From Woeseiaceae bacterium (GTDB taxonomy: Bacteria > Pseudomonadota > Gammaproteobacteria > Steroidobacterales > Woeseiaceae), in the NCBI GenBank assembly GCA_021773115.1, contig JAJFKS010000025.1:62001-126000 (forward strand): a DNA stretch of 64,000 nt. The letters run 5' to 3'. Within the stretch, counting starts at the first letter, position 1; each line of letters starts with the position of its first letter. The position numbers and the translations under genes were made by a program. Below, piece after piece: positions 4,859 through 40,632 of the stretch. Under the pieces are notes generated by a model, which saw only the letters and a program-made list of their open reading frames with translations, ran no database searches and was not told where the DNA came from.

Positions 4859-6421
4859 ATGAAACGTCGAAACGTAATCAAAACCGCAGGAGTGGCGGCG
4901 GGTTTGGCGTGGCTCGGCATGCCAGCTATCGGTTCAGGTAAGCCCGTAAAGTCGAAACTGCGGGTGGCAGCCAGTAGCTTCGAAACACACTTTGAAGCAG
5001 GGGCGCCTACCTTTGGTTACTCCGGCGAGACGGTGAAAAATGCAGCCGGACCATTGAAAACAACTGTATTGCTGGTTGAAGACGGCAGTAAACGGCTCTG
5101 TTTGATCACTTCCGATCTTCGCGTCGAAATCTTAAACGTAAATCACTTTCTTCGAGCGGAGGCGGCCAAAGTGTTGGGGCTCGATCCCTCGGAGGTTTTA
5201 TTCTTCACTTCTCACAACCATAGCGTATCGCCGTTGGCCGAAGTCGAAGTGAAGAGTTTCGTGTGGTATCAAAAGTCGCTTGATGAGCTTCCAGAAGTGA
5301 AACTCTTCCCTGTGGGTAAACGTTTCTTGGCTTCGTTACAACAGCACCTCGGCAAGTTGTCCAACAAGCTTGAGCCAGTCACTGTGGCTTGGGCGCAGGG
5401 CAGCGAAGGGCGCATTACCTATAATCGCAAGGGGCGGCGGGCAGATGGCTCCACCTATTTCATGCGGGAGGAGGACCGCGAGCTGATGGGTAAGGACTTC
5501 AGCGGGGATATCGACAAGGAAGTACCCGTGGTAGTTTTTCGCAATGAAAAAGAGAAGCCGATTGCCGCCTTGCTACAGTTTACAGGACATCCAGTAACAA
5601 GTTATCACCCTGAGAACCTCACGATTTTTGGCGATTATCCTTCAGTTGCTGCTGATGTCCTGAGTCAAGCTCTGGGTGAAGGTGGAGAGCCGGTGCCTGT
5701 CGCATTTTTACAAGGGTGTGGCGGGGATTCCAGCTCCAAAGAGATGTTTATTGGGGGCGTATCGCGGGCACGGGAGTTCGGAGAAATGCTTGGGCAGAGT
5801 GCGGTCGATTCGCTGGCGGATCTTAAACCGTCTCGACTTGCGGGCATGGACTACGTAGAACAAAAAGTAGGCATACCGCTAGCGCCTCTCCCGGCGAAAG
5901 AAATAATTCTAAACGAAATCGAAGAGATGAAAGATTTCATTCGTCGAGCAAACGCAGGCGACGAAGACACACTCTCGTGCGTTGGACAGAATTTCCCGAG
6001 GGCACTTACGCCAAAATATCGCGGTGCCTTGGTTGGTATGCTGTTGGATTGGAACGAATGGGCGCTTTCTAAGTACAAACAGGGTAAGGACGGCGAAGTG
6101 ATGCAGTCGCTGGATGTACCGCTTTATGTTCTGAGGTTGGGCGATGTCGCAATAGCGGGGATGCCGTTCGAGCCGTTCTTGGGCATCGGCCGTCAGATCC
6201 GCACACAATCACCTTTTCCGCTGACCATCCCTTGCGGGTACGTGAACGAAACGCACGGATACGTTACGGATTCCGCCAACACGGGTGACCGCGAATACAT
6301 GAGCTCGTTTTACCGCTATACCAAGTTCCGCCCCCCGTTTGCCAAGCCTGCCGGTGATGTGGTGGCTGATCGTGCGGTTGAAACGCTTCGCGGGTTTTGG
6401 AACGAGCGACAAACGACATGA
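4859..6421 (+). CDS. Tat-exported neutral/alkaline ceramidase-superfamily hydrolase (paralog A)
   Basis: 520-residue protein with a twin-arginine signal (KRRNVIK, then a hydrophobic stretch to about residue 25), so exported folded to the periplasm. The body matches the neutral/alkaline ceramidase N-terminal domain family, zinc amidases acting on N-acyl bonds: the metal-site motif SHNHS (His119, His121), FTGHPVTSYHPE, LQGCGGDSSSKEMF and the C-terminal GYVTDSANTGDREYMS. It shares with three other proteins in the window a signature GSEGRITYNRKGRRADGSTY. It is the most divergent of the four. It heads an operon with an acid-sugar dehydratase and a hydroxyacid dehydrogenase behind a LacI-type operator. 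The true substrate is unknown; a ceramide is only one possibility. Confidence 0.8.
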   Translation: MKRRNVIKTAGVAAGLAWLGMPAIGSGKPVKSKLRVAASSFETHFEAGAPTFGYSGETVKNAAGPLKTTVLLVEDGSKRLCLITSDLRVEILNVNHFLRAEAAKVLGLDPSEVLFFTSHNHSVSPLAEVEVKSFVWYQKSLDELPEVKLFPVGKRFLASLQQHLGKLSNKLEPVTVAWAQGSEGRITYNRKGRRADGSTYFMREEDRELMGKDFSGDIDKEVPVVVFRNEKEKPIAALLQFTGHPVTSYHPENLTIFGDYPSVAADVLSQALGEGGEPVPVAFLQGCGGDSSSKEMFIGGVSRAREFGEMLGQSAVDSLADLKPSRLAGMDYVEQKVGIPLAPLPAKEIILNEIEEMKDFIRRANAGDEDTLSCVGQNFPRALTPKYRGALVGMLLDWNEWALSKYKQGKDGEVMQSLDVPLYVLRLGDVAIAGMPFEPFLGIGRQIRTQSPFPLTIPCGYVNETHGYVTDSANTGDREYMSSFYRYTKFRPPFAKPAGDVVADRAVETLRGFWNERQTT

Positions 6422-6621
6422 ATTAGCGGCTTTCGCCGAGCCGTCAAATTCTGTGCGCGCCGCTACCACTCGTTGTCGACTGTCCGGACGGTTGTCGTTC
6501 TGTTTGCCGGAATACGGGCTGCTGCACTCTATACCTGAGTACGACCTAACTCGCTCTCGATTTGACCGAGCCTGTTGCTGTGACAGCTGTGCAGCGTCGC
6601 TGAAGAATACGGGAATCGGAT

Positions 6622-7851
6622 TTGAAGATTATTGATGTGAAAACTGCCCTGCTTACTGGGCCTCTGACAAACGATCCATCCTTGCTGGTGTTTCGAAAAC
6701 TTCGTTCTGCTGCGTTCATTGAGATTCATATGGACAGCGGAATCATCGGCATTGGCGAAACCTACATCGGCTACTTCGTGCCTGAGGTAGTGCCCAACAT
6801 CGTCGATTTCTTCAGGTCCATTCTTGTAGGTCTGACCGACGACGAGATCCAGCCTGGCCAAATCTACGATCGCATGATGCGCTGCGCTCACTTCTGGGCG
6901 CGGACCGGAATGGCGGTCAGCGTTCTTGCCGGTATTGAAGCAGCGTTGTGGGACCTGCGAGGGAAGCTCGATAATAAGCCTGTATACGAATTACTCGGTG
7001 GGACAAAATACGATCGCCTCCTCTGCTACGCCACGGGTTCCGTCAGCAACTACCCCTGGCCGAAGCTGAATGCTAAAATTGAACAGTATCGAGTTGCTGG
7101 CTTCCGCGCTGCCAAGTTCGCTGCCGGGTGGTACGACGCAAGCAATCAGTGCGTTTTTAACAGTACGTCCCCACAGGAATGGGCTGATATCGAATCAGAA
7201 AAACTCGAAGCCATCGGCCGCACCACTAGTGGCGACTTCGCTATCTGCATGGATGGGCATATGGATAATATGCATCACGCCGACCTGCGACCCTGGACGA
7301 TCGATATAGCAAAAACTGTTATGCAAGCTATCGAGCCCTATGGCCTTCTCTTCTTCGAAGAGCCTTTCAATTACGATCAGGTCAATGACTATGCGGAGCT
7401 TTGCCGAAGCACCACGGTCGACATCGCAGGCGGCGAATGCCTTACAACACCCAACGAGTTTCAAGCCTTCGCCGATCTCGACGCGCTGGATATCGCACAA
7501 CCTGACGCGTCCTTCATCGGTATCGGGACTTTTGTAGATGTGGCCACTATGTTCGCAAAACGCGGTCGCCAAATCGCAACCCACGCGTGGAGCAGTGGTG
7601 CCGGCATCATGGCGAATATCCACGCCGCATTCGCCTCACCCGGCATCGCTATCGTCGAAATTCCTCCGCTCGCCGGGCCGTTGCATACCGAAGTATGGGT
7701 TCCCGGCTTGCGATTTGAGGATGGCTACATCCTCCCGCCTGATGCACCCGGCCTTGGCGTCACACTCACCGAAGAGATAAAAAATCGCTTCCCCTTCATT
7801 CCGGGTAGCGGCGAGTTCAACCCGGTGCCTGGCAAACTACAAGTGATGTAG
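6622..7851 (+). CDS. Enolase-superfamily acid-sugar dehydratase (mandelate racemase/muconate lactonizing type)
   Basis: 409-residue TIM-barrel enzyme with an N-terminal capping domain. Metal ligands appear in CMDGHMDN, FFEEPF and AGGECLTT; the lysine in AAKFAAGW and histidine in ATHAWSSGAG are the likely acid/base residues. Family members dehydrate aldonic acids such as galactonate or mannonate to 2-keto-3-deoxy acids. I chose the TTG at 6622 because the protein then begins MKIIDVKT, the conserved family opening. It lies 200 bases after paralog A in the same direction with no operator between, so it is probably in the same transcript. The sugar-acid product could feed KDG kinase and aldolase at the start of the window. 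Confidence 0.85.
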   Translation: MKIIDVKTALLTGPLTNDPSLLVFRKLRSAAFIEIHMDSGIIGIGETYIGYFVPEVVPNIVDFFRSILVGLTDDEIQPGQIYDRMMRCAHFWARTGMAVSVLAGIEAALWDLRGKLDNKPVYELLGGTKYDRLLCYATGSVSNYPWPKLNAKIEQYRVAGFRAAKFAAGWYDASNQCVFNSTSPQEWADIESEKLEAIGRTTSGDFAICMDGHMDNMHHADLRPWTIDIAKTVMQAIEPYGLLFFEEPFNYDQVNDYAELCRSTTVDIAGGECLTTPNEFQAFADLDALDIAQPDASFIGIGTFVDVATMFAKRGRQIATHAWSSGAGIMANIHAAFASPGIAIVEIPPLAGPLHTEVWVPGLRFEDGYILPPDAPGLGVTLTEEIKNRFPFIPGSGEFNPVPGKLQVM

Positions 7852-8004
7852 ATGCCTTCTGCGTGCACAGGACATCATCGCACAGCCTGGCAGGTGTGGA
7901 TTGAGACAGCGAACACCTTCCTGCGCTTTGGGAAGCTCACAAATCGATGCCCCCTTTTTTTCGAGTGAAAGTTTTTGTGCCCGAACAAGCCGCGAAGTAA
8001 TTAT

Positions 8005-9030
8005 ATGATCGATAAGCCCGTAATTCTGATAATGATCGAGCATGAGGAACACCACCTCGACAAGATTCGCGACGCATGCCCAGGTTGCGAGTTGCGCATC
8101 GCTCCGAAGAACGATCGCCCCGAGCATATCGATCCAGAAGTGTTGAGCAACGTTGACGTGTTCATCGGGAATCATCCGCCATCGAACTTCAATGATTTCA
8201 AAAATCTTCGCTGGGTACAGATCGCCTCAGCGGGGTATGCTCATATCACGCACTTGCCTCTCGTGCAGCGGGGCATTCGCGTCACCAATGCGCTTGGTGT
8301 GTTCGACTCACCGATCGCCGAGTGGAACATCATGACGATGCTCATGTGGGAGCGTCGCATGGTCGAACAGCTCGAGAACCAAAGGAACTGCGTGTGGGAC
8401 CGCGCTGCCAGATTTCAGTCCAGTCTGTTCGGTCGCACGATCGGCTTCGTCGGCTACGGAGGCATTGCCCGTGAAACGGCACGACTGGCGAAGGCGATGA
8501 ACCTGAACGTCCACGCGATTACCCGTGACGGCGGAATAAAAAGCCGCGATCTTGTTTACCGTGTTGAGAATACCGGAGATTCCGAAGGCAAGTGTGTCGA
8601 TCGCCTGTTCAAGATGGCCGATATGACCGAGTTCCTACGCGATCTCGATTATCTGATCATCACCGTACCGCATACGCCACAAACTGAAGGGATGATTCGA
8701 GAGCAACAGCTTCGCGCGCTCAAGCCGTCTGCGGTATTGATAAACTCCGCGCGAGCACCGATCGTAAACGAGGAGGCACTAATTCGTTGCCTTGAAGAGC
8801 GCTGGATTCGTGGTGTGTCGGTTGACGTACACTACGCTTACCCGCTGCATTCCACGCATCCGCTGTGGCAGATGCCAAATGTCGTCCTTACGCCCCATGT
8901 GGCGGGGTCTGATTCGAATTCGCATTACCTTGATCGCATCTACGATATTTTTTCGCAGAATCTCCATCGTTATCTCAGCAATGAGCCGTTTCTCAATTTG
9001 CTGACCGAGGCGCAACTGCTGGGTAAGTAA
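8005..9030 (+). CDS. D-isomer-specific 2-hydroxyacid dehydrogenase
   Basis: 341-residue NAD(P)-dependent oxidoreductase if started at ATG 8005; an in-frame GTG at 7975 would add ten residues. The Rossmann motif GFVGYGGIARETA and the catalytic arginine in SARAPIVNE and histidine in LTPHVAGS follow the D-2-hydroxyacid dehydrogenase pattern. It reversibly reduces 2-keto acids to D-2-hydroxy acids. It follows the acid-sugar dehydratase in the same direction and probably handles a keto-acid intermediate of the island pathway. Insertion-sequence remnants begin 8 bases after its stop. Confidence 0.87.
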   Translation: MIDKPVILIMIEHEEHHLDKIRDACPGCELRIAPKNDRPEHIDPEVLSNVDVFIGNHPPSNFNDFKNLRWVQIASAGYAHITHLPLVQRGIRVTNALGVFDSPIAEWNIMTMLMWERRMVEQLENQRNCVWDRAARFQSSLFGRTIGFVGYGGIARETARLAKAMNLNVHAITRDGGIKSRDLVYRVENTGDSEGKCVDRLFKMADMTEFLRDLDYLIITVPHTPQTEGMIREQQLRALKPSAVLINSARAPIVNEEALIRCLEERWIRGVSVDVHYAYPLHSTHPLWQMPNVVLTPHVAGSDSNSHYLDRIYDIFSQNLHRYLSNEPFLNLLTEAQLLGK

Positions 9031-9722: not shown

Positions 9723-9751
9723 TTGACAGACTGTAACGTTAAAGGCATATT
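9723..9751 (+). promoter_or_regulatory. Promoter with operator in the spacer, ceramidase-like gene B
   Basis: TTGACA (9723-9728) and CATATT (9746-9751) are spaced by 17 bp, with TGTAACGTTAAA at 9732-9743 between them. The geometry, operator 3 bp after the -35, is the same as in the promoters of paralogs C and D. Confidence 0.85.
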
Positions 9752-9799: not shown

Positions 9800-11344
9800 A
9801 TGAATCACACACGTCGTCATTTCTTGCAGAGTTCTGTCGCAGCGGGTGCCGTGACAGCAGCCGGCCTTTCCTGGAGCAACATTGCGAACGCACTGGGGAG
9901 CAGCGAGAAACTTGAAGTGGCCGCCATCCGTTTCGGTACCATGGCGGACGTTGGCGATACTGGTTCCAGCCGCGTCGGTGCAAAGATCGGCGAGGTCGCC
10001 GGTCCACTGAAGACGACGGTAATGCTGTTCAGGGACGGTGCCACGCAAGTTTGCCTGGTCGCCTGGGATATCGGTGGCAGCAACGAGTACACCAAGGATA
10101 TTGTCTCACGTCGGCTCGGCATTCCGCGGGAGAACGTGCTGGTATTTTCTTCTCATAACCATAGCGGCGCGCCGACAGGTGCTGGTGATCCGCCGCCATA
10201 CTTTTACTCGATTCCCTATGAAGCGCCGAAGAAACGTAAACTCACGCCGTTCGGCAAGCGGCTCTTTACGCAGGTCGACGATTCACTGAAGAAATTACCG
10301 AAAATGCTGGAACCAGTCACGGTCTGGCACGCGGAAGGCTCCGAGGGTCGGATCACCTACTGCCGCAAAGGGCGCCGGGCCGATGGTTCGACCTTTTTCA
10401 TGCGCGAAGAAGACCGTGTCCTGTACGGCAAGGATTTTAACGGCGACATCGATCGTCAGGCGCCAGTTGTGGTCTTCAAGAACGCCAGTGGCCGCCCGGT
10501 TGCCGGCCTGGTGCAGTTCACCGGTCACCCGGTCACCAGTTACCATCCAGAGAAGCCCGTTGTGCACGGCGACTGGCCGCAGGTCGCGACAGACATCGTT
10601 GGCCGCGAACTGGCGGGCGGCAGCGGCGAGCCGGTGCCGGTCGGCTTCCTGCAGGGTTGTGCCGGCGACGTCAATTCCAAGGAGATGTTCGTCGGTGGTG
10701 TTGAGCGGGCCATTGAGTTTGGCGAACTACTCGGCGGCAGTTACGTCAAGGCGTTGTCTGACCTTAAGGAGTCCGACCGTCGCGGCATGAACTTCACCAT
10801 GGCGCCCGCACACGTGCCCTGCGGCGAGCTGCCGAGCGAACAGGAGTTGCGCGCCGAGATTGCTGAGATGCAGGACTTCATCAAGCGTGCCGACGCCGGC
10901 GACGAGAACACCATTAATTGCGTTGGCCTGAACTTTCCGCACGCACTGACACCGAAATACCGCGGCGCGCTCATTAAGGCGGTGCTGCCCTGGAGCGAGT
11001 GGGCGCTCGACCTCAGAGTTACTGGACGCACCGACACAGCAATGAAGGCGGTCGACATGCCGGTGCACGTCATGCGCATCGGCGACGTCGGCATACTCGG
11101 CCTCACCTGCGAGCCCTTCCAGGGCATCGGTCGTCGCTTCCGCGAGTTGTCGCCGCTGCCTCTGTCGATCCCGTGCGGCTACACCAATGGTTCGCACGGC
11201 TATGTAACTGACGCGGCGAATACTGGCGACCGCGAATACATGAGTGCCTTCTATCGCTACACGAAGTTCCGGCCGCAGTTCGAGCGACCTGCCGGCAACG
11301 TCTTGGCCGACAGTGGTGTCGAAGCGCTGAGGAGTTTTCTATAG
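9800..11344 (+). CDS. Tat-exported neutral/alkaline ceramidase-superfamily hydrolase (paralog B)
   Basis: 514-residue protein starting at ATG 9800 behind AGGAG (9788-9792). The twin-arginine signal is TRRHFLQS followed by a hydrophobic run ending near NIANALG. Family motifs are SSHNHSGAPTG (putative zinc histidines 119 and 121), FTGHPVTSYHPE, LQGCAGDVNSKEMF and GYVTDAANTGDREYMS. The sequence is close to paralogs C and D along its whole length. It stands as its own transcription unit with a LacI-type operator in the promoter, converging on the SSS transporter gene. Expected to act in the periplasm on an N-acyl bond; substrate unknown. Confidence 0.82.
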   Translation: MNHTRRHFLQSSVAAGAVTAAGLSWSNIANALGSSEKLEVAAIRFGTMADVGDTGSSRVGAKIGEVAGPLKTTVMLFRDGATQVCLVAWDIGGSNEYTKDIVSRRLGIPRENVLVFSSHNHSGAPTGAGDPPPYFYSIPYEAPKKRKLTPFGKRLFTQVDDSLKKLPKMLEPVTVWHAEGSEGRITYCRKGRRADGSTFFMREEDRVLYGKDFNGDIDRQAPVVVFKNASGRPVAGLVQFTGHPVTSYHPEKPVVHGDWPQVATDIVGRELAGGSGEPVPVGFLQGCAGDVNSKEMFVGGVERAIEFGELLGGSYVKALSDLKESDRRGMNFTMAPAHVPCGELPSEQELRAEIAEMQDFIKRADAGDENTINCVGLNFPHALTPKYRGALIKAVLPWSEWALDLRVTGRTDTAMKAVDMPVHVMRIGDVGILGLTCEPFQGIGRRFRELSPLPLSIPCGYTNGSHGYVTDAANTGDREYMSAFYRYTKFRPQFERPAGNVLADSGVEALRSFL

Positions 11345-11389: not shown

Positions 11390-12886
11390 TCAGGATGCCC
11401 TGGGCATCCTTTTCGCGCCAAAATAGCTGACCACGCAGCCCACAGCCAAGTTTGCGATTAGCGAGCAAGCCCCGATGAGCTGGAAGCTGACCGCCTGTGT
11501 GTTTGTGATGACGTCCCAGTAAGCAACAACGAGACCAGTCAGGAAACCGAATATCGCCCCAACAATTGCTCCGCTTGCGGTTGCGAAAGGAACGAAGAGC
11601 GCAAAGATAAAAAGACAGAAAAGTGGCACCACCAGAATATTGGCTGTTTTCATAGTCAGTTCGAGAAAGTTTCCTGGAACGAATTGCATGAAATGACTCA
11701 GCACAATTACCACCAGCCCGGTCCCGGCCGTCAGATATTTGCTGAAAGGAGGATCGCCTGACGCAGGCAGACGCGCTTGTCTGCGGTAATCAATAAAGTC
11801 CGATTGCACGACCGCAGAAATCGAATTGACGCCGGAATCAATGCTGGACATGGCAGCGGCAAAAATGGCAACAACGACTAGTCCGGAAACCCCCACCGGA
11901 AGGAACTCCGCGATAAAGAGCGGGAACAATTGATCTGCATTGTGTATCAGGTCGATTCCCGGCGGCAACGATCCAGGGAATTTACTGAAAAACGCCAAAA
12001 GTCCGAACCCTATAGAGGACAGGATCAGGAACACAAATACCTGAGCGACCGATTTCACCAAATACGCTTTCCGCGCCGTACTCGGCCCGTTTGTCGACAT
12101 GTAGCGCTGTATCGCGACCTGGTCCCCGCCAGCGGTTGCTACCTGGATGATGAGAATCGAGATCACCGAGCCGACGACGGTTGCGCGGACATGAACATCG
12201 AAACTGAAGAATGGCTGATTATCCCAATTTGCCGCCCATTCGGTAGGCCACCAATCGAAGCCCTTCATTTTTGCTGAAATAATAACCAGAGTAAGTAAGG
12301 CGCCGCCGAGCAGTAATACGAACTGGATGGCATCGGTTACGATGACAGTACGAATCCCACCCAAGGAGGTATACAAGATCGCAATTGATCCCGCTATCAC
12401 CGCTACAACTGTTGTCCAGTCTTCGCCAATACCGAGAACTATGACGAGCGCATTGGCGGTCAAATAAAGAAGCAGCGACATCCATACGAGACGCAATAGA
12501 ATGAACATTATTGCGCCCATCTGCCGGACTCCGGCGCCGAGTTGTCGCTCTAGCAACTCGTAAGCACTCGTGACTCGTCGCCGCATAATTACCGGTATGA
12601 GGATGTAGCCCACAATCCAATAGCTAAGGGGGATCGCCAGTAGCCCTGCCATAACAACAGGCCCATGTTTGATCATCTCTCCCGGTTGCGAAAGATAGGA
12701 GACAGTACTCAGCAGCGTCACGAACAATGAAACGCCGATCATTCCGGCGGACATGTTTCGTCCCCCAGTGAAGTATTCCTCCCTCGAGTTTTGGCGCCTG
12801 GAATTGTACCAACCGAGAAGCAAGACCCCGATCCCGTATGACAGAATCAGGAGCCAGTCGATCCAATGCAATCGCGATCCGATCAC
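11390..12886 (-). CDS. Sodium:solute symporter (SSS family)
   Basis: 498-residue inner-membrane transporter with about 13 hydrophobic segments and the SSS landmark regions SREEYFTGGRNMSAGMIG near the N-terminus and GLVVVAIFAAAMSSIDSGVNS in the middle. SSS proteins import sugars, amino acids or carboxylates with sodium. The GTG start at 12886 is 9 bases after the stop of the pyruvyl-transferase-like gene, so both are in one operon under the operator at 14126. The likely role is uptake of the product released by the exported hydrolases; the substrate cannot be read from sequence. Confidence 0.9.
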   Translation of the reverse strand: MIGSRLHWIDWLLILSYGIGVLLLGWYNSRRQNSREEYFTGGRNMSAGMIGVSLFVTLLSTVSYLSQPGEMIKHGPVVMAGLLAIPLSYWIVGYILIPVIMRRRVTSAYELLERQLGAGVRQMGAIMFILLRLVWMSLLLYLTANALVIVLGIGEDWTTVVAVIAGSIAILYTSLGGIRTVIVTDAIQFVLLLGGALLTLVIISAKMKGFDWWPTEWAANWDNQPFFSFDVHVRATVVGSVISILIIQVATAGGDQVAIQRYMSTNGPSTARKAYLVKSVAQVFVFLILSSIGFGLLAFFSKFPGSLPPGIDLIHNADQLFPLFIAEFLPVGVSGLVVVAIFAAAMSSIDSGVNSISAVVQSDFIDYRRQARLPASGDPPFSKYLTAGTGLVVIVLSHFMQFVPGNFLELTMKTANILVVPLFCLFIFALFVPFATASGAIVGAIFGFLTGLVVAYWDVITNTQAVSFQLIGACSLIANLAVGCVVSYFGAKRMPRAS

Positions 12887-14095: not shown

Positions 14096-14125
14096 CCGAG
14101 TATTTCCGCAAAAAAGAGGAGGAGG

Positions 14126-14158
14126 TTTAACGTTATAGTTTGGTCGATGAGTTGTCAA
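14126..14158 (-). promoter_or_regulatory. Promoter with operator on the -10, pyruvyl transferase-SSS operon
   Basis: On the minus strand TTGACA (14153-14158) and TATAAC (14132-14137) are 15 bp apart. The 12-mer TATAACGTTAAA (14126-14137) includes the -10 box. The same arrangement occurs in front of the second TonB receptor and the propeller gene. Confidence 0.8.
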
Positions 14159-15922: not shown

Positions 15923-16086
15923 ATGCGTTGCGGCACAGTGCGAAGCGGAAGGAAAGTCTCCGCCATCGTTCTTGGCAAACATCCGGTCATTGGAAGGCAG
16001 AGATTAGCGCGGTATTTAGTGCTCTTTTCGATTCGGGGAGGGGCGCGGTTGACAAAAATTTATTACGACAACAAGAAGGTACACCA

Positions 16087-20378: not shown

Positions 20379-20424
20379 GTCTGCTGTTATGTCAAGGCAC
20401 TGATGCCCATTCATGGATGTTCGC

Positions 20425-25422: not shown

Positions 25423-25433
25423 CAGGGACACAG

Positions 25434-28762: not shown

Positions 28763-28877
28763 GTTCACAGGGGTTCGCTCGTTCTTCAAATCATGCGAAG
28801 AGTCGGCGTACGGCAGAAAAAGTAACGCAGAAAATTGTCAGGCCGGCATTGTGTGCGGCTTCGAGGGGGCTAAGGTT

Positions 28878-31922: not shown

Positions 31923-32813
31923 ATGAGCTCAGTCGGCAAACTCAACGGAATTATCGTGGCTCTCATCACGCCTTTCGACAGTAAAGGCAAGCTGGCGCCG
32001 GAACGCGCACGAAAGTTGATAGAGAGTCATATTGAAACGGGTGTGCAGGGCTTCTACGTTGGCGGTAGTTCTGGCGAGGGCTTTCTGCAATCTGTAGAGG
32101 AACGCCGCGAGTATCTGCAGTTCGTTGCCAATGTCTGCGCAAATAGGGTTACGTTAATAGCCCAGGTCGGTGCGCTGTCGTCGCGTGACGCATGGACGCT
32201 GGCAGACGATGCAGGCCAGATTGGCTACGACATCGTGTCTTCGACGCCACCGTTCTACTACTCGTACACTGAGCAAGAGGTGCTCGACTATTATCGGGAG
32301 TTGGCGGAGCGCAGTCCGTTGCCGATAATGCTGTACAACGCACCGCATACCACTGGCCGTAAGCTTTCGCTCGACGCTCAAGCGGCGATGCTGAAGCTGC
32401 CAAACGTCATCGGATCCAAGCACACGGATACCAATCTTTTTACCGCCGAACGCCTTATGCAAACATTGAAGGGCGTTCAGTTCGTTAACGGACCGGACGA
32501 CATGCTTACCGCCGGCCTGGCGATGGGTATGGTCGGTGGTATTGGTACCACCTACAATTTCATACCGCGCATTTATCTTGACATATATAGGCATGTGAAG
32601 AACGGGGACCTGGCCAGCGCCAGGGCTTCCCAGGCCATCGCCAATGAACTTATCGATGAACTGATACGTGTTTCCCCAAGTGTAATTCCGGGTACAAAGC
32701 TTGCGCTTGACATTCAGGGCTACGACGTAGGCCCGGCCCGGAAACCGTTTCAGAAAATTACCGCCGACACATCGCGATTCGAAAAGCTGCTGAAAGATTG
32801 CGATGCTTTTTGA
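31923..32813 (+). CDS. DapA/N-acetylneuraminate lyase-family aldolase (1)
   Basis: 296-residue TIM-barrel class I aldolase. GFYVGGSSGEGF, the catalytic tyrosine in IMLYNAP and Schiff-base lysine in VIGSKHTDTNLF are in the expected order; the length is that of a typical NAL/DapA subunit. The family cleaves or forms 2-keto-3-deoxy acids with release of pyruvate (sialic acid, KDG, hydroxy-oxo acids). The GGSSGEGF form resembles N-acetylneuraminate lyases more than DapA, and the next gene carries a NanM-like propeller, so a sialic-acid-like nine-carbon or other keto-deoxy acid substrate is possible but unproven. Confidence 0.87.
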   Translation: MSSVGKLNGIIVALITPFDSKGKLAPERARKLIESHIETGVQGFYVGGSSGEGFLQSVEERREYLQFVANVCANRVTLIAQVGALSSRDAWTLADDAGQIGYDIVSSTPPFYYSYTEQEVLDYYRELAERSPLPIMLYNAPHTTGRKLSLDAQAAMLKLPNVIGSKHTDTNLFTAERLMQTLKGVQFVNGPDDMLTAGLAMGMVGGIGTTYNFIPRIYLDIYRHVKNGDLASARASQAIANELIDELIRVSPSVIPGTKLALDIQGYDVGPARKPFQKITADTSRFEKLLKDCDAF

Positions 32814-32960: not shown

Positions 32961-35759
32961 ATGAGGTTGATCTCGACATCTGATTGTTGTAACGCCGAAC
33001 CTGCCGCGATCGGCCGAATGCTCAGGCTGCTTGCGACGGTGCTCCTTGCAATGGGACTTTCGCCGCTGGCGCAGGGCAACGAGGATAGCCCGGAATTGCT
33101 GACGCGTATCGAGTTTAACGAGTTCGGCGAACTGGGTTCGTCCGGACCGGATGCAGGTCCCGGGATCGCCGGCGCCTATGTAGGCGTGCAGAACGGCGGG
33201 CTTATCGTCGCCGGTGGAGGGAGTGGTACAGGCTCTCCTGGGCAGGAGAGCCGAGATTTCGGTACGAGACGGAATATTCACGACGAAGTATGGGTCGCTA
33301 CACGAGTTGACGGCAAGATCTCCACAGACGAGCGTCAGCTCAGTTGGCATGACACAGGACTGAGGCTGCCGGGCAAGAGGGCATTCGGCGCATTCGCTAA
33401 CCACGAATTGGGACTGATTGCAGTCGGGGGTAGCGATGGTACAGACGCCCGGAATGAAAGTTTTCTGATTCGATGGGACAGCCAGTCGAAGGCGGCGAGC
33501 CTGCTCGAATTGCCGGAATTGCCGAAGGCCGCCATGAATGGCGGTGCGGCGGTTATCGGCGACAGTCTATACGTCGTGGTAGGCAGCAATGCTGGCGGCT
33601 CGAGTCACGACTTCTTTAGATTCGACCTCGGCCGCATTCAAACTGACGCATTCGGTGAGCCTGTTGCTGATGGCAGGTTGGCAAGGATCACCGAGCAGCT
33701 GGACGAGCAGGGGAGAGTTGTCGGCCCCTGGGAGCAACTGCCGGCCCTGCCAATTCCTGACGGACAAACGCGTGGCAACGTCTCCATGACGGTGGCCGCC
33801 CAGAACAACGGAATCGGTGACCGGCTGTTCGTTATCATGCCGACTTCAGCCGCTCCTGGCGCAGGCGGCGACCGGGCTGGTTCGAGTAAACGGGGCAGTG
33901 TCTGGTCTTATGACCCGGTAGCCAACGCGTGGACCCGGAAAGCCGATGTGCCCTTGGTCGGCGCAGGTGTCAGTGGATTTGTCGGTAGCGCACTGGGGCA
34001 GTCTCATATCCTGGTCTTTGCGGATGCAGTATCCGGTGAGCAGCGCGTCGCCCGTTCCTACAACACCGTGACCAATACCTGGACGGACTACGCCGAGGTA
34101 TATGCGGGTCCTGGGACACAAACGACCACCGGGGCCGATTCGCTCGTTCTCCAGGCAGTAACAGCGTTCGTCAAATGGGACGGCGATTTCCTGCTACTGG
34201 GTAACGGGGTTCGGGCAGGCGTTCCGGTTGCCGGTATCTGGCAGTTCGACGTGAAGAGTCCGGTTTCACACTTCGGTTGGCAGAACATGACTGTGTTGAT
34301 CGTATACCTGTTGTCGATGGTGGTGGTCGGTGTCTATTTTGCGCGGAAGAACAGTGACACAGACGACTATTTCCGAGGCGGACAGAACATTCCGTGGTGG
34401 GCGGCAGGTTGTTCCATCTACGCTACCATGCTGAGTTCCTTGACCTACCTCGCACTTCCGGCACTCGTTTACCAGACAGACTGGCTCTTGTATATCGGTA
34501 TTCTGACCGTGTTGATGGTTGCGCCGATTATCGTGCATCTCATCATGCCGTTCTTCCGAAACATCGATGCGACCAGTGCGTATGAGTACCTTTCCAAGCG
34601 ATTCAATATGCCCGTAAGGCTGTTTGCCAGTGCGCTGTTCATCTGCTTCCAGATCGGGAGAATGGGAATTGTGATGGCACTAACGGCGCTCGCGCTGGCA
34701 GCCGTCACCCCTCTCGACGCATGGCAATCGGTACTTCTTATGGGCGTGCTATCGATGATCTACAGCGCGATGGGCGGAATTGAAGCCGTGGTTTGGACAG
34801 ATACTATCCAAGTCTTCGTGCTTACCCTTGGTGCACTGCTATGTTTCGGCTTCATTATCAGCGGAATAGACGGCGGCTTGTCGGGATTCTTCAGTGCCGG
34901 CATTGCGGATAACAAGTTCCGGCTGCTGGATCTCGACTTCAGCGCCAGTAGTATAACGTCGCTTTCTATCTGGGTTATTGTCCTGGGCGGCATCGGCCAG
35001 AACATGTCGAGCTATTCAGCGGATCAGGCAGTGGTTCAGCGTTACATGACCACCAAGAGTACCAAGGCAGCCGCATCCTCGATCTGGACGAACGCGATCG
35101 TCACGGTGCCGGGCGTTCTGATGTTCTTCTTTATTGGAACCGGGCTTTATGCGTTCTACCAGTCTAACCCGGCCAAGCTGGATCCGAACCTGCAGATCGA
35201 CCAGATTTTTCCTGCTTTTGTTGGCGCCGAGCTCCCCATCGGTCTTGCGGGACTGATTGTGGCTGGAATCTTTGCCGCCGCACAATCCACGGTGTCGTCC
35301 GGGATGAATTCGACCGCGACCGCTTTGGTCACTGACTTTCTGCGACCCTTTAGAGTCTGCCAGAGCGATCGCAGCTACCTGAAGGCGGCGAGAATATTGA
35401 CGGTCGTGATGGGCGTGCTGGGTACCGCAGTTGGTCTGATGTTTATCAGTCCGGAGATTCGCTCGCTCATGGCCGAGTACTTCAAAGTGATCGGTATGTT
35501 CATGGGTGCATTAGCTGGGCTGTTTATTCTCGGCATCACAACGCAGAGAGCAACAGGCGCTGGCGCACTCGTCGGAATGGTCTGCGGGGCTGGCATCAAT
35601 ATCGTGGTGTGGTTGATGGAGTGGGCCAACGGCTACCTTTTTGCGACCATTGGTATAGCTTGCAGTATTGGCATTGGATACCTGGCGAGCTTGCTGTTGC
35701 CCGCCGATAAGCGGGATATTGACGGGTTGACCATCTATACACTGCAACGCAATCCGTAA
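32961..35759 (+). CDS. Fusion of periplasmic kelch (NanM-like mutarotase) domain and SSS transporter
   Basis: 932 residues. A signal peptide (LLATVLLAMGLSPLAQG) precedes a kelch-type beta-propeller to about residue 435, with repeats such as LIAVGGSDGTDAR, LYVVVGSNAGGSS and LLLGNGVRAGVPVAGIWQF, resembling sialate mutarotases. From about residue 437 there are the hydrophobic segments of a sodium:solute symporter (DDYFRGGQNIPWWAAG, LAGLIVAGIFAAAQSTVSSGMNS). The propeller would sit in the periplasm beside the transport pore and could present the correct anomer. Neighbours are a NanA-like aldolase and a lactonase. Confidence 0.87.
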   Translation: MRLISTSDCCNAEPAAIGRMLRLLATVLLAMGLSPLAQGNEDSPELLTRIEFNEFGELGSSGPDAGPGIAGAYVGVQNGGLIVAGGGSGTGSPGQESRDFGTRRNIHDEVWVATRVDGKISTDERQLSWHDTGLRLPGKRAFGAFANHELGLIAVGGSDGTDARNESFLIRWDSQSKAASLLELPELPKAAMNGGAAVIGDSLYVVVGSNAGGSSHDFFRFDLGRIQTDAFGEPVADGRLARITEQLDEQGRVVGPWEQLPALPIPDGQTRGNVSMTVAAQNNGIGDRLFVIMPTSAAPGAGGDRAGSSKRGSVWSYDPVANAWTRKADVPLVGAGVSGFVGSALGQSHILVFADAVSGEQRVARSYNTVTNTWTDYAEVYAGPGTQTTTGADSLVLQAVTAFVKWDGDFLLLGNGVRAGVPVAGIWQFDVKSPVSHFGWQNMTVLIVYLLSMVVVGVYFARKNSDTDDYFRGGQNIPWWAAGCSIYATMLSSLTYLALPALVYQTDWLLYIGILTVLMVAPIIVHLIMPFFRNIDATSAYEYLSKRFNMPVRLFASALFICFQIGRMGIVMALTALALAAVTPLDAWQSVLLMGVLSMIYSAMGGIEAVVWTDTIQVFVLTLGALLCFGFIISGIDGGLSGFFSAGIADNKFRLLDLDFSASSITSLSIWVIVLGGIGQNMSSYSADQAVVQRYMTTKSTKAAASSIWTNAIVTVPGVLMFFFIGTGLYAFYQSNPAKLDPNLQIDQIFPAFVGAELPIGLAGLIVAGIFAAAQSTVSSGMNSTATALVTDFLRPFRVCQSDRSYLKAARILTVVMGVLGTAVGLMFISPEIRSLMAEYFKVIGMFMGALAGLFILGITTQRATGAGALVGMVCGAGINIVVWLMEWANGYLFATIGIACSIGIGYLASLLLPADKRDIDGLTIYTLQRNP

Positions 35760-35778: not shown

Positions 35779-36879
35779 ATGAAAGCAAGGGCAGTTGCAA
35801 ACGACTCATACAATCCCGACATGCTCGTTTTCTGTACTTCGTTCCCCAATGGGCCCGGGGGTGCCATTCATGGTTTTCGCCTTGACCCCAACAACGGTCG
35901 ACTGACTGCGGTTCACTGCACCGGCGACATTGAAAACCCTTTCTTCCTGACCCTGTCTCCGTGTGGCAGTGTACTCTACTCGGTGCACGCGCCGGGGACA
36001 TTTTCCGGGCCGGATTACAGTCAGATTGCTGCGTACCGGCTCGAGGGCCCAGACGGGGTCCCGCGCCTTCTCAAGCGGCAATCAACGCACGGGTCGGGAG
36101 CCTGCTATCTGAGCATTGCCGCAACGGGTAAGACTATCCTGTCGGCGAACTACTCCAGCAGCTCGGTAGCATCGTTCCCGCTTGGTGATGATGGCTCACC
36201 CGGCGCCGCTGTATCCGTAATCGGGCAAGCTCATTCAAGTAATGACCTTGATCGAGAGCAGCGGTCGCATCCTCATTGCATTGTGTCCAGTGCGGACGGC
36301 CGTTATGTGATCATCGCGGACCTGGGCCTTGACCTGGTTCAATCCCGCCCATTTGATTCCGCGACCCATCGACTGGCGTCTCCTGATTCTCCTGGTATCG
36401 CGCTGCAGCCGGGTTCCGGTCCGCGCCACCTGGTGTTTTCTACCGATGGCGGGCGCCTCTACGTTGTCAATGAACTGAGTTCAACCATCACTATGCTCGA
36501 CTTTGACAAGCAGACCGGGCTTATGCGCGAGCGGCTTACATGCTCGACACTCCCCGATGGGTTCGACGGTGAGAACGCGGCCGCGGATATCGTGCTAACG
36601 ACGGACGGGCGTTTCATGTACGCCTGCAATCGCGGCCACGATAGTATCGCGGCCTACTGTTTCGGTGATGACGGGGTACCCGGTTGCGTCGAGATTACGT
36701 CGAGTTGTGGCGCTTCACCGCATAGCCTCGCGATATCGCCGTGCGGTTCGTTCCTGCTCTGTGCTAACTCAGACGACGGGTGCATAGTGGTTTTTCGGAT
36801 CGATTCCGTGAGCGGAGAGCTATCGATGATCGGTCAGCCCACCGCTGTACCGTTTCCTTCATGCCTGGCGATCCGCTGA
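35779..36879 (+). CDS. Lactonase, 7-bladed beta-propeller (YbhE/6-phosphogluconolactonase-like)
   Basis: 366 residues from ATG 35779; ATG 35821 is an alternative nearer the conserved start. The repeats NPFFLTLSPCGSVLYSVHAPG, PHCIVSSADGRYVIIADLGLD, GSGPRHLVFSTDGGRLYVVNEL and PHSLAISPCGSFLLCANSDDG are the blades of the lactonase family that includes E. coli Pgl and muconate-lactonizing relatives. It probably hydrolyses a sugar lactone to the aldonic acid in the cytoplasm. It is 19 bases after the transporter and in line with the SDR, so it is part of the same unit. Confidence 0.87.
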   Translation: MKARAVANDSYNPDMLVFCTSFPNGPGGAIHGFRLDPNNGRLTAVHCTGDIENPFFLTLSPCGSVLYSVHAPGTFSGPDYSQIAAYRLEGPDGVPRLLKRQSTHGSGACYLSIAATGKTILSANYSSSSVASFPLGDDGSPGAAVSVIGQAHSSNDLDREQRSHPHCIVSSADGRYVIIADLGLDLVQSRPFDSATHRLASPDSPGIALQPGSGPRHLVFSTDGGRLYVVNELSSTITMLDFDKQTGLMRERLTCSTLPDGFDGENAAADIVLTTDGRFMYACNRGHDSIAAYCFGDDGVPGCVEITSSCGASPHSLAISPCGSFLLCANSDDGCIVVFRIDSVSGELSMIGQPTAVPFPSCLAIR

Positions 36880-36928: not shown

Positions 36929-37702
36929 ATGAATTTGTTCGATCTCAAGGGAAAGACCGTCCTGATCACGGGAGGCTATGGTTACCTGGGGGGTGCCATG
37001 GCTCTGGGCCTGTCCCATTACCAGGCTAATGTGTGTGTCCTTGCACGCTCTGAAAGCAAATTCAGGGAGGCGTTCGGGAGCGACGCGGGTCGATTGCACT
37101 TCATCCCTTGCGATATCGCGAATTCAACTAGCATCAAATCGGCAGTGATCACAGCCGCGGAGGCGCATGGTTCGATTGACGTTCTTATCAATAACGCCAT
37201 GTATTGTCGTGGCAATGACCCCTTGGGCATCAGCGACGACGACTGGGCTTTCAGCGTCGACGGAGTAGTTAGCAGCGTGTATCGCTGTATTCGTGAGGCG
37301 GCACCAATCATGCAGAAGCAGGCGAGTGGCAGCATTATCAATGTCGCGTCGATGTACGGCATCGTAGCACCTGATTTCGCGGCCTATGAAAACGCACCAG
37401 AATCTCTGAATCCGCCACACTACGGAGCAGGAAAAGCGGCGGTCATTCAATTGACGAAATACTACGCGCAATTGCTTGGTCCACAAAACGTCAGAGTCAA
37501 CAGCATTTCACCGGGGCCGTTTCCGAATCTTGACACACAAAGAAACCAGGATTTTGTGAGCGCTCTCAAGGAACGAACCAGCCTCCGCAGAATCGGGCGG
37601 CCGGAAGAATTAATTGGTGCCGCAGTTTACCTGGCGTCACATGCGTCATCCTACGTGACGGGGCAAAACCTGGTCGTTGATGGCGGCTGGACTGCTACCT
37701 GA
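36929..37702 (+). CDS. Short-chain dehydrogenase/reductase (SDR) 1
   Basis: 257 residues with the classical SDR layout: the cofactor loop (normally TGxxxGIG) as TGGYGYLGGAMA, the NNA motif (INNAMYCRG), and the catalytic Ser/Tyr/Lys with Tyr in HYGAGKAAV. The C-terminal ASYVTGQNLVVDGG is standard. Homologous sequences of this type oxidise sugars or sugar acids with NAD(P). It is the last gene before the LacI regulator and lies 49 bases after the lactonase, so a lactone-forming sugar dehydrogenase role is attractive; the direction of the reaction is not known. Confidence 0.88.
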   Translation: MNLFDLKGKTVLITGGYGYLGGAMALGLSHYQANVCVLARSESKFREAFGSDAGRLHFIPCDIANSTSIKSAVITAAEAHGSIDVLINNAMYCRGNDPLGISDDDWAFSVDGVVSSVYRCIREAAPIMQKQASGSIINVASMYGIVAPDFAAYENAPESLNPPHYGAGKAAVIQLTKYYAQLLGPQNVRVNSISPGPFPNLDTQRNQDFVSALKERTSLRRIGRPEELIGAAVYLASHASSYVTGQNLVVDGGWTAT

Positions 37703-37890
37703 CGCGGCAATAGCCGAATATTAATCTAAAGCGGACAAGCCTTGTTGACTACCGGGCACTCGACTGGCGGGCGTACGAATTGCGGTGCTCGATGTGTATA
37801 ATCCAGTGGCTGTGAATAATGAAAAATAAATGAACGCGCTGGGCAAGACTATTGCTCGCTAGGCGCCAAACCAAAGGTCGAACACGTCGT

Positions 37891-38937
37891 ATGGTAAAGA
37901 AGAGGGTGAGTTCAAGAAGAAACCGGCGGGTCACTCTTCGTGATATCGCGGAGGCCACGAACGTTTCGGTTATGAGCGTCTCCAACGTCGTCAACGGCAA
38001 ATCTCAGTTTGTCAGCCGTGCGACACGCCTGAAAGTAGAGGCGGCGATCAAAAAGCTGAAATACGTACCGAGTGCAACCAGCCGGAAACTGCGAAGTAGT
38101 CAAGAGTTTTCCATCGGCATGATTATCATGGACGAGGCGCCGGTATTTCTCGCCGATCCGTTCATCTGCCTGCTCGTGGCTGGCCTGAGCAATCATCTCA
38201 GTTCGAATAACTACTCCTTGACGATACAAGGAGTGCGCCCCGAGAGCTTCAAGCAAGCCTCATTGTTTTCGGTAGCCGGCACGGACGCTTTGTGTGCCAT
38301 TTTGTGCGGGTCCGAAGCAGATAGGCGCAAGAACGTCGAATTCATGATGGGCAGGCACCAACCGGTGGTGCTCTTCCAGGACAAACTGAATATCAAAGCG
38401 AGTGGAATCGCGATGGTCAGTCAGGATGACGAGAAAGGCGGCCATAGTATAACGTCTCACGTCATTTCACGTGGCGCGAAGAGATTGCTATTCGTCAGGC
38501 CGTTGGTGCAATGGCCGGCCATCGAGAAGCGCTTGAAGGGCGTTAAGAAGGCTATCGCACGGAAAAAAGGGGTGACACTCGATATCCTCAAATGCGAAGA
38601 GTCGACATTTGAGAAGACGCAGGAAGCACTTGCCGAATATCTCGCTGACGCTGAGGTCCCGGATGCCATTCTTGGTGGGACAGATGCGATGGGTATTGCG
38701 GCGATGCGCTATTGTCAGGATCAGGACTTCGACGTCCCTGGCGAAATCATGGTTACCGGTTTTAATGGCTTTTCTGCGAGTAATTTTTCGACCCCCTCAT
38801 TAACCACCATTATTTCACCGGCTTACGAAATGGGGCAGTTGGCGGGCCAGCTTATCCTCGATCGGTTGCGGACCGGTCGTTTTTCGGCACGCAATACATT
38901 GCTTCCGGTGTCATTCAAGCAGGGTGGATCCGCGTAG
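37891..38937 (+). CDS. LacI-family transcriptional regulator, probable master regulator of the island
   Basis: 348 residues from ATG 37891 (an upstream in-frame TTG at 37852 is less likely). The helix-turn-helix VTLRDIAEATNVSVMSVSNVVNG occupies residues 14-36, in three parts: VTLRDIAEAT, NVSVMSV and SNVVNG. A hinge helix with SRKLRS contains Leu67, which in LacI proteins wedges into a central CG step. A periplasmic-binding-like effector domain follows (ILGGTDAMGIAAM, MVTGFNGFSASNF, LTTIISPAYEMGQLA). It is the only DNA-binding regulator within the island and the repeated 12-mer operators have a central CG, so I infer it binds them. No such site lies before its own gene, though a TATAAT occurs at 37797-37802. 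Confidence 0.85.
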   Translation: MVKKRVSSRRNRRVTLRDIAEATNVSVMSVSNVVNGKSQFVSRATRLKVEAAIKKLKYVPSATSRKLRSSQEFSIGMIIMDEAPVFLADPFICLLVAGLSNHLSSNNYSLTIQGVRPESFKQASLFSVAGTDALCAILCGSEADRRKNVEFMMGRHQPVVLFQDKLNIKASGIAMVSQDDEKGGHSITSHVISRGAKRLLFVRPLVQWPAIEKRLKGVKKAIARKKGVTLDILKCEESTFEKTQEALAEYLADAEVPDAILGGTDAMGIAAMRYCQDQDFDVPGEIMVTGFNGFSASNFSTPSLTTIISPAYEMGQLAGQLILDRLRTGRFSARNTLLPVSFKQGGSA

Positions 38938-39018: not shown

Positions 39019-39047
39019 TTGACAGTATGTAACGTTAAAGTTATATT
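39019..39047 (+). promoter_or_regulatory. Promoter with operator in the spacer, ceramidase-like gene D
   Basis: TTGACA (39019-39024) and TATATT (39042-39047) are 17 bp apart with TGTAACGTTAAA at 39028-39039. This is the closest match to consensus sigma-70 among the regulated promoters of the island. Confidence 0.87.
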
Positions 39048-39081
39048 TGGTTTTTAAGACCGACACCATTCCGGAGTTCTC

Positions 39082-40632
39082 ATGACCGACAAAGACAGAC
39101 GCGCGTTCCTGCAAAAATCACTTGCCGCAGGCACCGTTGCCGCATCGGGCGTTTCCCTCGGCAACATTGCGTATGGCATGAGCGGGCACGGGCAACTGGA
39201 AGTAGCCGCAATTCGTTTCGGTACCATGGCTGACGTCGGTGATGCCGGTGCGAGCAAGCTCGGCAACAAGGTTCTGGAAGTGGCCGGTCCGCTGAAGACG
39301 ACAATCATGCTACTCAGGGAAGGGAACCAGGAGGTCTGCATTATCTGCATCGATTTCCTGCTGAGCCGGCCGCTGGCATACTTCAAGAAAATTGTTTCGC
39401 AGGAACTCGGAATTGCCGCGGGTAACGTAGTGATGTTTTCTTCGCACAATCACAGCGATGCCCCAACTGGCGGATTTACCGGGGTGAATGACCAGGATTA
39501 CCGCGACAGGTTGATTTCGTCGGAAGAGTCACCGCTGACGCCTTTCGGCGAGCGGCTGTTCAAAGAACTCAGAGATTCGGCGCGTCGCTTGCGCAGGATG
39601 CTGGAGCCGGTGAGCGTCTGGTATGCCGAAGGTAGCGAAGGCCGCATAACGTACAACCGCAAAGGCCGTCGCGCTGACGGCTCGACGTACTTCATGCGAG
39701 AAGAAGACCGTGGTCTTGTCGGTGACGATTACAATGGCGATATTGACCGCCAGGCGCCGGTCGTGGTCTTCAAAAACAAGCACAACAAGCCAGTTGCCGC
39801 CCTCGTGCAGTTTACAGGGCACCCGGTGACCAGCTACAAGCCGGAGGCACCGGTCGTATTCGGCGAATGGTCGCAAACCGCGACGGATATCGTCGGCAGG
39901 GAGTTGGCCGAGGGTGGCGAGCCGATTCCCGTCGGTTTTCTGCAGGGGTGTGCCGGCGATGTGAATTCAAAAGAAATGTTCAGCGGTGGCGTGGAACGCT
40001 CGCGCCTGTTCGGCAAGATGCTCGGCGAGAGCTACGTCAAGGCGCTGAACGATCTGCAGCCATCAGCTCGTAGTGGTTTGATGTATGCTGCGGAAGCCGT
40101 TCCGGTGCCGTGCGGTCCGCTGCCGGACGTGCGCACACTACAACTGGAAATCGACGAGATGAATGACTTCATTCGGCGCGCCGACGCGGGAGATCAGAAA
40201 ACGCTCAGTTGCGTTGGGCTGAACTTCCCGCACGCATTGTCACCCGAGTACCGCGGCGCACTGGTCAAGTCGGTGCTGCCATGGAGCGAGTGGGCGCTGG
40301 ATATTCGCAAGACAGGCCGTGAAGACACCATCATGAAGGCACTCGATCTGCCAATCTACGTAATAGGACTGGGCGATGTAGGCATTGTGGGCCTGCAATG
40401 TGAACCGTTCCAGGGCATTGGCCGGAGGCTGCGCGAACTTTCACCCCTCCCGCTGACTATTCCGTGCGGATACGCCAATGGCTCGCACGGTTACGTTACA
40501 GACTCTGCCAATACGGGCGACCTCGAATACATGAGTTCGTACTACCGCTACACCCGATTCCGGCCGCAGTTCGCGCGGCCGGCCGGCGACGTGCTGGCGG
40601 ATCGAGGTGCACAAATTCTCGCGAAAGGATAG
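39082..40632 (+). CDS. Tat-exported neutral/alkaline ceramidase-superfamily hydrolase (paralog D)
   Basis: 516 residues from ATG 39082. Twin-arginine signal KDRRAFLQKS then a hydrophobic region to GNIAYG. It carries the same motifs as B and C: SSHNHSDAPTGG (with Asp in place of the Gly after HS found in B and C), FTGHPVTSYKPE, LQGCAGDVNSKEMF, GYVTDSANTGDLEYMS (Leu where the others have Arg). It leads the operon D-aldolase-amidohydrolase-CBM9. The alterations around the metal motif and near the C-terminus suggest divergence in specificity among the paralogs. Confidence 0.82.
   Translation: MTDKDRRAFLQKSLAAGTVAASGVSLGNIAYGMSGHGQLEVAAIRFGTMADVGDAGASKLGNKVLEVAGPLKTTIMLLREGNQEVCIICIDFLLSRPLAYFKKIVSQELGIAAGNVVMFSSHNHSDAPTGGFTGVNDQDYRDRLISSEESPLTPFGERLFKELRDSARRLRRMLEPVSVWYAEGSEGRITYNRKGRRADGSTYFMREEDRGLVGDDYNGDIDRQAPVVVFKNKHNKPVAALVQFTGHPVTSYKPEAPVVFGEWSQTATDIVGRELAEGGEPIPVGFLQGCAGDVNSKEMFSGGVERSRLFGKMLGESYVKALNDLQPSARSGLMYAAEAVPVPCGPLPDVRTLQLEIDEMNDFIRRADAGDQKTLSCVGLNFPHALSPEYRGALVKSVLPWSEWALDIRKTGREDTIMKALDLPIYVIGLGDVGIVGLQCEPFQGIGRRLRELSPLPLTIPCGYANGSHGYVTDSANTGDLEYMSSYYRYTRFRPQFARPAGDVLADRGAQILAKG

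Follow-up and report, generated by a model that had tools for sequence, protein, structure and literature searches.

A predicted sugar-acid regulon encoding four probably exported proteins remotely related to neutral ceramidases in a Woeseiaceae bacterium

Four paralogous genes in a 64,000-nucleotide stretch of a Woeseiaceae genome (the window; contig JAJFKS010000025.1 of assembly GCA_021773115.1, or G000:C18:62001-126000 by our handles, in the 4.41 Mb genome G000) encode proteins for which we coined the names CerA, CerB, CerC and CerD. It is very likely, as judged from sequence comparisons, that they are exported zinc hydrolases of the ceramidase superfamily, and their substrate is probably something other than ceramide. 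We favor, with moderate confidence, a reading in which they are single-domain zinc amidohydrolases for a polar, anionic substrate, from which they would strip an acyl or amide group before import. Remote membership in the neutral-ceramidase superfamily is well supported by profile alignments, and membership in the ceramidase family proper is not supported. What our analysis adds to the initial annotation of this DNA is a conserved hexapeptide-repeat partner gene and a set of relatives in bacteria of the Planctomycetes-Verrucomicrobia-Chlamydiae (PVC) group.

The Cer proteins and their remote kinship with neutral ceramidases

The initial annotation had described four paralogs of about 515 residues, and the open reading frames (ORFs) from the proposed starts are intact and indeed encode 514-520 residues; CerB and CerC would have 524 and 519 if begun at the upstream TTG codons in the ORF list. 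All four proteins carry the motifs that had been named as shared (SHNHS, FTGHPVTSY, QGC-x-GD and GSEGRITY-x-RKGRRADG, the last in CerB as ITYCRKGRRADG). CerB, CerC and CerD are 51-52% identical to CerA, and a search of the whole G000 genome (E≤0.01) returned four matches, all of them inside the window. Twin-arginine translocation (Tat) signals had also been claimed, and the pattern is visible in all four, of the RR-x-F-L type in CerB, CerC and CerD and as KRRNVI in CerA. Only CerB passes a curated Tat model (TIGR01409, 17.2 bits against a cut-off of 16.7), and the same protein stays below the cut-off of Pfam TAT_signal (21.0 against 22.7 bits). Tat export is predicted for the four proteins but is not a trait of the family: a Tat-like motif was recognized in at least 37 of the 120 homologs listed, by a pattern that overlooks some cases, and inspection by eye shows many Sec-type starts.

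Kinship with ceramidases, another claim of the initial annotation, was borne out by two kinds of comparison. A family profile of 75 sequences (the four window proteins, 64 homologs from the 120 listed out of 670, and seven translations from related loci) was searched against 177635 PDB sequences at E≤10, and the only matches were the neutral ceramidases 2zws (E 7.8e-5) and 4wgk (E 0.034). In pairwise hhalign comparisons the Cer profile aligned with seven proteins of the class that clear the Pfam threshold for ceramidases by a wide margin (97.1%, E 6.9e-11, 381 columns) and with 13 PVC ceramidase-like proteins (99.9%, E 5.2e-35, 422 columns, 14% identity); the latter two sets aligned with each other at 99.8%. 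The PVC set comes from 13 of 20 loci, since in the other seven the longest ORF was not clearly the right gene. The zinc-site comparison with the Pseudomonas ceramidase (PaCD) that had been proposed as a check also holds at the level of sequence: in the 2zws alignment H122, H124, R193, H247, E441, Y471 and Y483 of CerD are matched with H97, H99, R160, H204, E411, Y448 and Y460 of PaCD, among which we take H97, H204, E411 and Y448 to be zinc ligands and H99, R160 and Y460 to be catalytic residues. Six of these seven positions are invariant in 75/75 rows of the family and the arginine is present in 73/75.

After the aligned catalytic arginine, the Cer family has a nearly invariant, longer and strongly charged stretch with the consensus NRKGRRADGSTYFMREEDR. 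Between its NR and ID motifs, charged residues make up 45% in the Cer family (64/75 rows parsed) against 21% in the PVC relatives (10/13 parsed), a comparison that covers the PVC relatives only, as none of the seven ceramidases (0/7) could be parsed. A number of Lys, Arg, Glu and Asp residues that are conserved throughout would thus lie next to the predicted zinc site, which suggests that the substrate may itself be charged.

Comparison of the window with G065, a relative in the same family, gave Ka/Ks ratios (nonsynonymous over synonymous substitution rates) of 0.065-0.12 for CerB, CerC and CerD, which shows that these three genes are under purifying selection. In a tree of 52 rows, built by a quick method and with SH-aLRT (approximate likelihood-ratio test) support only, CerB, CerC and CerD form one clade with the G065 copies and four metagenome proteins (support 100), nested in a group that otherwise consists of Verrucomicrobiota and unnamed rows; CerA groups first with unnamed rows and then with one row each of Sedimentisphaerales and Bacteroidales. 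By this tree, CerB, CerC and CerD are duplicates that arose within the Woeseia-type lineage, and CerA was gained separately. G065 keeps 26 of the 35 queried island genes in the same order (60 kb searched) and has CerB in two copies. A homolog search of that genome found no counterpart of CerA, and the searched 60-kb stretch gave no match for the two genes that follow CerA, those of the dehydratase and the dehydrogenase. The family is patchy, being present in 2/196 genomes of the order and in 5/288 of the phylum of genome G205, with at most five candidates scored per genome and with G205 and G214, already known as carriers, included in the count. At E≤1e-30, the 23 genomes reached through related loci comprise 18 with one match, three with two (the second match being far weaker than the first), one with four and one with six, the latter a metagenome-assembled genome titled Opitutus sp. 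The initial annotation had regarded four copies in one catabolic regulon as a departure from lipid-degrading ceramidases; the non-lipid setting and the single predicted regulon stand, but multiple copies as such are not unique to this island.

Operator, partner gene and neighborhood

A predicted operator, TAACGTTAAA with the core TAACGTTAWA, lies 5' of each of the four Cer genes (Table 1). At CerA, CerB and CerD a strong sigma-70-like promoter has this operator within its 16-17 bp spacer; at CerC the operator-centered promoter is weaker and the best-scoring hexamers lie elsewhere. The claim that every Cer gene stands behind an operator-promoter can therefore be retained in full for the operator, and for the promoter with a poorer fit at CerC. 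The window contains 23 operator matches with at most one mismatch against 3.1 expected, or about 13 sites, as the palindrome is counted on both strands. Exact matches are concentrated in the island, which holds 12 of the 14 in the G000 genome (8 sites) and 10 of the 11 in G065 (7 sites). However, a reversed-pattern control gave 25 matches in G000 (14 for the real pattern) and 6 in G065 (11 for the real pattern), and the operator is thus notable for its clustering and not for its number. The LacI-family protein encoded in the island, 89% identical to its G065 counterpart, is the likely reader of this operator.

Sugar-acid enzymes had been predicted downstream of the Cer genes. This applies to CerA, CerC and CerD, but CerB is followed by genes on the opposite strand. 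Directly behind CerC lies a gene for a hexapeptide-repeat protein, and its homologs adjoin a Cer homolog in 20 of 28 related loci, mostly from PVC bacteria, with 43-74% identity to the window gene. Eighteen of these 20 neighbors are directly downstream on the same strand, one is upstream (L032) and one lies beside the Cer gene on the other strand (L008). The loci that lack such a neighbor are L009, L020, L021 and L026-L030, among which L029 and L027 have little space before the contig ends. CerC is the only Cer gene that the hexapeptide gene accompanies, both in the window and in the stretch of G065. As a rough check, confined to the rows listed and with contigs of equal size taken as identical, 20 of 120 hexapeptide homologs share a contig with the 120 Cer homologs; the corresponding figure for propeller-hydrolase homologs is 5 of 120. 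The best solved relative of the hexapeptide protein is QdtC, a sugar N-acetyltransferase (3fs8, E 1.2e-30).

Table 1. Cer genes, predicted operators and other features of the island, by position in the window
Feature	Position	Strand	Remark
Operator TTTAACGTTAAA	4798..4809	.	within promoter spacer of CerA
CerA	4859..6421	+	520 aa; putative exported ceramidase-superfamily hydrolase; separate lineage, nearest rows Planctomycetota/Bacteroidota
Sugar-acid dehydratase type, enolase superfamily (MR_MLE)	6622..7851	+	downstream of CerA
D-2-hydroxyacid dehydrogenase	7975..9030	+	downstream of CerA
Operator	9732..9743	.	within promoter spacer of CerB
CerB	9800..11344	+	514 aa; putative exported ceramidase-superfamily hydrolase; two co-orthologs in G065
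Sodium:solute symporter (SSF1)	11390..12886	-	
PS_pyruv_trans-domain protein	12896..14158	-	87% identical in G065
Operator	14126..14137	.	between symporter and hydrolase units (divergent); repeated at 14273-14284
Secreted propeller-type hydrolase-like protein	14456..15922	+	some relatives have GH32-like names; start set by eye
FAA hydrolase	15928..16932	+	nearest model 2,4-didehydro-3-deoxy-L-rhamnonate hydrolase, 394 bits vs cut-off 500
Aldo/keto reductase	16970..17866	+	
TonB-dependent receptor 1	17904..20531	-	true start probably downstream of ORF start
Operator, first CerC copy (one mismatch)	20367..20378	.	upstream of CerC
Operator, second CerC copy	20434..20445	.	upstream of CerC
CerC	20495..22039	+	514 aa; putative exported ceramidase-superfamily hydrolase
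Hexapeptide-repeat protein	22234..22860	+	directly behind CerC; homolog adjoins Cer gene in 20/28 loci
GlcD, GlcE, GlcF (glycolate/D-2-hydroxyacid oxidase type)	22864..26657	+	
Class-III aminotransferase, GSAM-like	26872..28155	-	
Operator-like site (one mismatch)	28251-28262		at class-III aminotransferase unit
Operator	28751..28762	.	overlaps -10 of TonB receptor 2; another, weaker copy at 28718
TonB-dependent receptor 2	28851..31790	+	
NanA-like aldolase	31923..32813	+	252.5 bits vs cut-off 281
NANM/kelch region fused to sodium:solute symporter	32961..35759	+	NANM 41.2 bits vs cut-off 45
7-bladed lactonase	35779..36879	+	
Short-chain dehydrogenase (SDR) 1	36929..37702	+	
LacI-family regulator	37852..38937	+	probable reader of operator
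Operator	39028..39039	.	within promoter spacer of CerD
CerD	39082..40632	+	516 aa; putative exported ceramidase-superfamily hydrolase
Divergent DHDPS-type aldolase	40669..41700	+	homologs near Cer in L016, L019, L022
Amidohydrolase-2	41721..42587	+	presumed lactonase-type
CBM9 protein	42550..43287	+	
Amidohydrolase-3	43291..44805	-	PRK09061-like, below cut-off
Operator	44944..44955	.	between divergent amidohydrolase-3 and RidA units
RidA, SDR2, D-serine-dehydratase/BhcC-like pyridoxal phosphate (PLP) enzyme	45024..47714	+	

Many of the island enzymes score below the curated cut-offs of their nearest models. A 2-keto-3-deoxy-6-phosphogluconate (KDPG) aldolase and a sugar kinase lie upstream in the window, and the related loci add BNR, kelch/NANM, DHDPS, symporter (SSF), Gfo/Idh, M14 and propeller-hydrolase genes, the last as homologs near the Cer genes in PVC loci. 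Of these, the BNR, kelch/NANM, DHDPS, SSF and propeller-hydrolase genes are glycan-type neighbors seen in other phyla. The ORF of the propeller hydrolase probably starts near 14456, where a signal-like peptide is found, and not at 14186, the second operator copy of this region lying between the two. The PS_pyruv_trans protein, of a type normally connected with glycan synthesis, stands beside a symporter in a catabolic island and is 87% identical in G065.

Some further observations concern the related loci. On the Verrucomicrobiota contig L010 (870-9801), a row of four propeller hydrolase-like and two BNR genes immediately precedes a Cer-hexapeptide pair. A secreted-looking family of about 500-560 residues has eight members in seven loci near Cer genes (L019:2726-4396; L011, L013, L015, L016, L022 and L025), and the one member scanned had no Pfam match. 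In the G065 island, locus L043 (G065:C1:908361-909647) has, by eye, an extra class-V PLP-like gene with a Tat-like start, ERREFLG, beside an extra TonB-receptor-like gene.

Weighing the possible substrates

According to the reading that we favor, the Cer enzymes would act on an environmental glycan, presumably in the periplasm, by hydrolyzing an N-acyl (amide) bond at one of its amino-sugar or sugar-acid parts, and each paralog might serve a different substituent or residue. The trimmed piece would enter through the TonB and symporter proteins, and its degradation would fall to the island's aldolases, dehydratase, lactonases, dehydrogenases, GlcDEF and amine-handling enzymes. The LacI-type repressor would free the operons together once the sugar-acid product appears. 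The N-acyl amide of an anionic glycan part is the most economical guess as to the target, although the exact bond is inferred, and a 2-keto-3-deoxy sugar acid with an acylated amine would fit the pathway best. The initial annotation had proposed that the proteins may act ahead of import and take an acyl or amide group off a glycan or a sugar-acid conjugate; such a role would agree with our findings, with bond and substrate both presumed. An extension that we find quite unlikely is an acyl-exchange module, in which the hydrolase would act outside the cytoplasm to strip amino sugars of an unusual acyl group, and the hexapeptide partner would re-add a standard acyl group to the imported amine for the aldolase pathway; such a module would have spread first among PVC bacteria and then to Woeseia-type bacteria, with the hydrolase tripled and a second lineage added.

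These interpretations should be taken with some caution, since a number of results weigh against the favored reading. Only three of the four paralogs match Pfam Ceramidase_alk (PF04734) at E≤10, all weakly and the best of them, CerA, with 17.8 bits against a gathering cut-off of 32.1; a search of G000 and G065 with the same model gave no match at E≤0.001. The individual stretches of the PDB match of the 75-row profile are weak when taken alone (independent E-values of 1.5 and 3.3), and a profile of the four paralogs alone matched no ceramidase in the PDB. As for a possible specialization among the paralogs, the 25-residue windows of the mature protein in which CerB, CerC and CerD are least alike start at 126-131 and span 126-155, in the loop just after the HNHS metal motif, with 28% identity against 69% overall, but this result is post hoc, and a strict test for paralog-specific (group-fixed) positions near the metal motif was not significant (4/14, p 0.17). 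Ordinary sialic-acid catabolism, suggested by the NanA-like aldolase and the NANM-symporter fusion, was rejected, the canonical route being incomplete: both G000 and G065 lack a BNR_2 sialidase as well as any NanE that reaches its cut-off, so that ordinary N-acetylneuraminic acid (Neu5Ac) is an unlikely substrate. The single NanE match in G065 is weak (22.2 bits, cut-off 27), and of the two genomes only G000 has an AGE-type epimerase.

Superfamily membership and the kept metal-site residues would also be expected of true lipid amidases, which would hydrolyze ceramides or N-acyl-amino-acid lipids and have no connection with the neighboring sugar-acid genes. We consider this very unlikely, as general scans named no lipid or fatty-acid pathway protein among the island proteins scanned, a long, charged and nearly invariant stretch lies beside the aligned catalytic arginine, the match to the Pseudomonas ceramidase ends before the final part of that enzyme, and glycan-type partners recur across phyla. 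The recurrence of glycan-catabolic-type genes in other phyla speaks equally against the idea that the Cer proteins edit the surface glycan of the cell itself together with the hexapeptide acyltransferase, the catabolic neighbors being incidental. The resemblance of the partner to surface-glycan sugar N-acetyltransferases and the presence of the PS_pyruv_trans protein are in its favor, but the Cer genes have their predicted operator in common with a TonB receptor and other catabolic units, and we regard this alternative as highly improbable.

Two further alternatives leave the catabolic setting in place and change the bond. With 14% identity to the PVC relatives over the aligned columns, divergence is large enough for a shift in chemistry, and lactonase-type proteins do occur in the island; the Cer proteins might thus be zinc hydrolases of a lactone or ester, or even a non-hydrolytic sugar-acid enzyme on the same fold. 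That the full set of presumed ceramidase catalytic residues is kept, including the arginine and both tyrosines, and that two other lactonase-type proteins already serve the island, makes this unlikely. Alternatively, the Cer proteins could be amidases acting on detrital envelope material, where they would detach amino acids or peptides from acidic sugars at uronic-acid amides or at the lactyl-peptide bond in muramic acid; the aldolases would then receive the sugar acid, while the PLP enzymes and GlcDEF would process the amino acid or D-lactate. The class-III aminotransferase, RidA, D-serine-dehydratase-like enzyme and amidohydrolase-3 of the island would suit such a route, as would the position of GlcDEF directly behind CerC and its hexapeptide gene, the M14-type gene that adjoins Cer in L016 and a similar-looking gene, by eye, in L017. 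Woeseiales have moreover been proposed to live on detrital cell membranes and walls (PMC7082342). We nevertheless judge amino-acid release unlikely: general scans named no peptide transporter or peptidase among the island proteins scanned, GlcDEF might just as well process the product of the FAA hydrolase, and MurQ, which we considered as a sign of peptidoglycan recycling, is present in G000 and G065 but outside the island.

Significance and comparison with known systems

The ceramidase superfamily is numerous in PVC genomes, with up to 33 matched stretches in one of them, and its name implies lipid turnover. None of the titles listed in our open-library searches concerns the Cer group, none of those listed assigns a function to the PVC ceramidase-like group, and a term search in the main text of two Woeseiales papers gave no match for ceramidase or sialic. 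The island offers a regulated setting in which one branch of the superfamily looks directed at glycans or sugar acids, and it comes with a defined operator and a partner gene that is conserved. It makes the function of a large superfamily group testable, cautions against annotating such genes as sphingolipid metabolism, and points to a possible, unexplored role of ceramidase-related enzymes on a charged, probably sugar-based target.

Some likeness exists between the island and the nan genes for sialic acid, as a NanA-like aldolase adjoins the NANM-like/symporter fusion; the difference is that the aldolase and the NANM region score below their cut-offs and that the genome has no NanE over cut-off and no BNR_2 sialidase. 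The hexapeptide protein has the ND-x-x-P motif in common with sugar N-acetyltransferases of the QdtC/WxcM type. His123 and Glu141, which we take to be the active site of QdtC, correspond to Gly and Ser in the hexapeptide protein (counted by hand in the alignment), and unlike those enzymes it stands with catabolic genes.

With neutral ceramidases (PF04734; P. aeruginosa 2zws/2zxc, human 4wgk) the Cer proteins share the superfamily, by profile, and an aligned set of HxH, Arg, His, Glu and two Tyr. They differ in size (516 residues against 646 in PaCD) and in context, standing as they do among sugar-acid genes. Position 480 of 514 in the Cer profile aligns with residue 462 of 646 in PaCD, where the Cer protein is nearly finished, and the last 184 residues of PaCD are beyond the reach of the match; these presumably belong to the C-terminal domain that follows the catalytic domain in ceramidases, for which the alignment gives the Cer proteins no counterpart. 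The PVC ceramidase-like proteins are the closest large group. Ceramidase_alk stretches occur in seven of nine PVC genomes, at 1-33 per genome, and an expansion is seen in G209, G199, G203 and G205 (33, 17, 15 and 13 matched stretches). Their proteins have a shorter and less charged segment where the Cer family has NRKGRRADGSTYFMREEDR, but they are likewise single-domain proteins, of about 400-490 residues, and their GCGADQNP consensus resembles the QGCAGDVNS of the Cer family.

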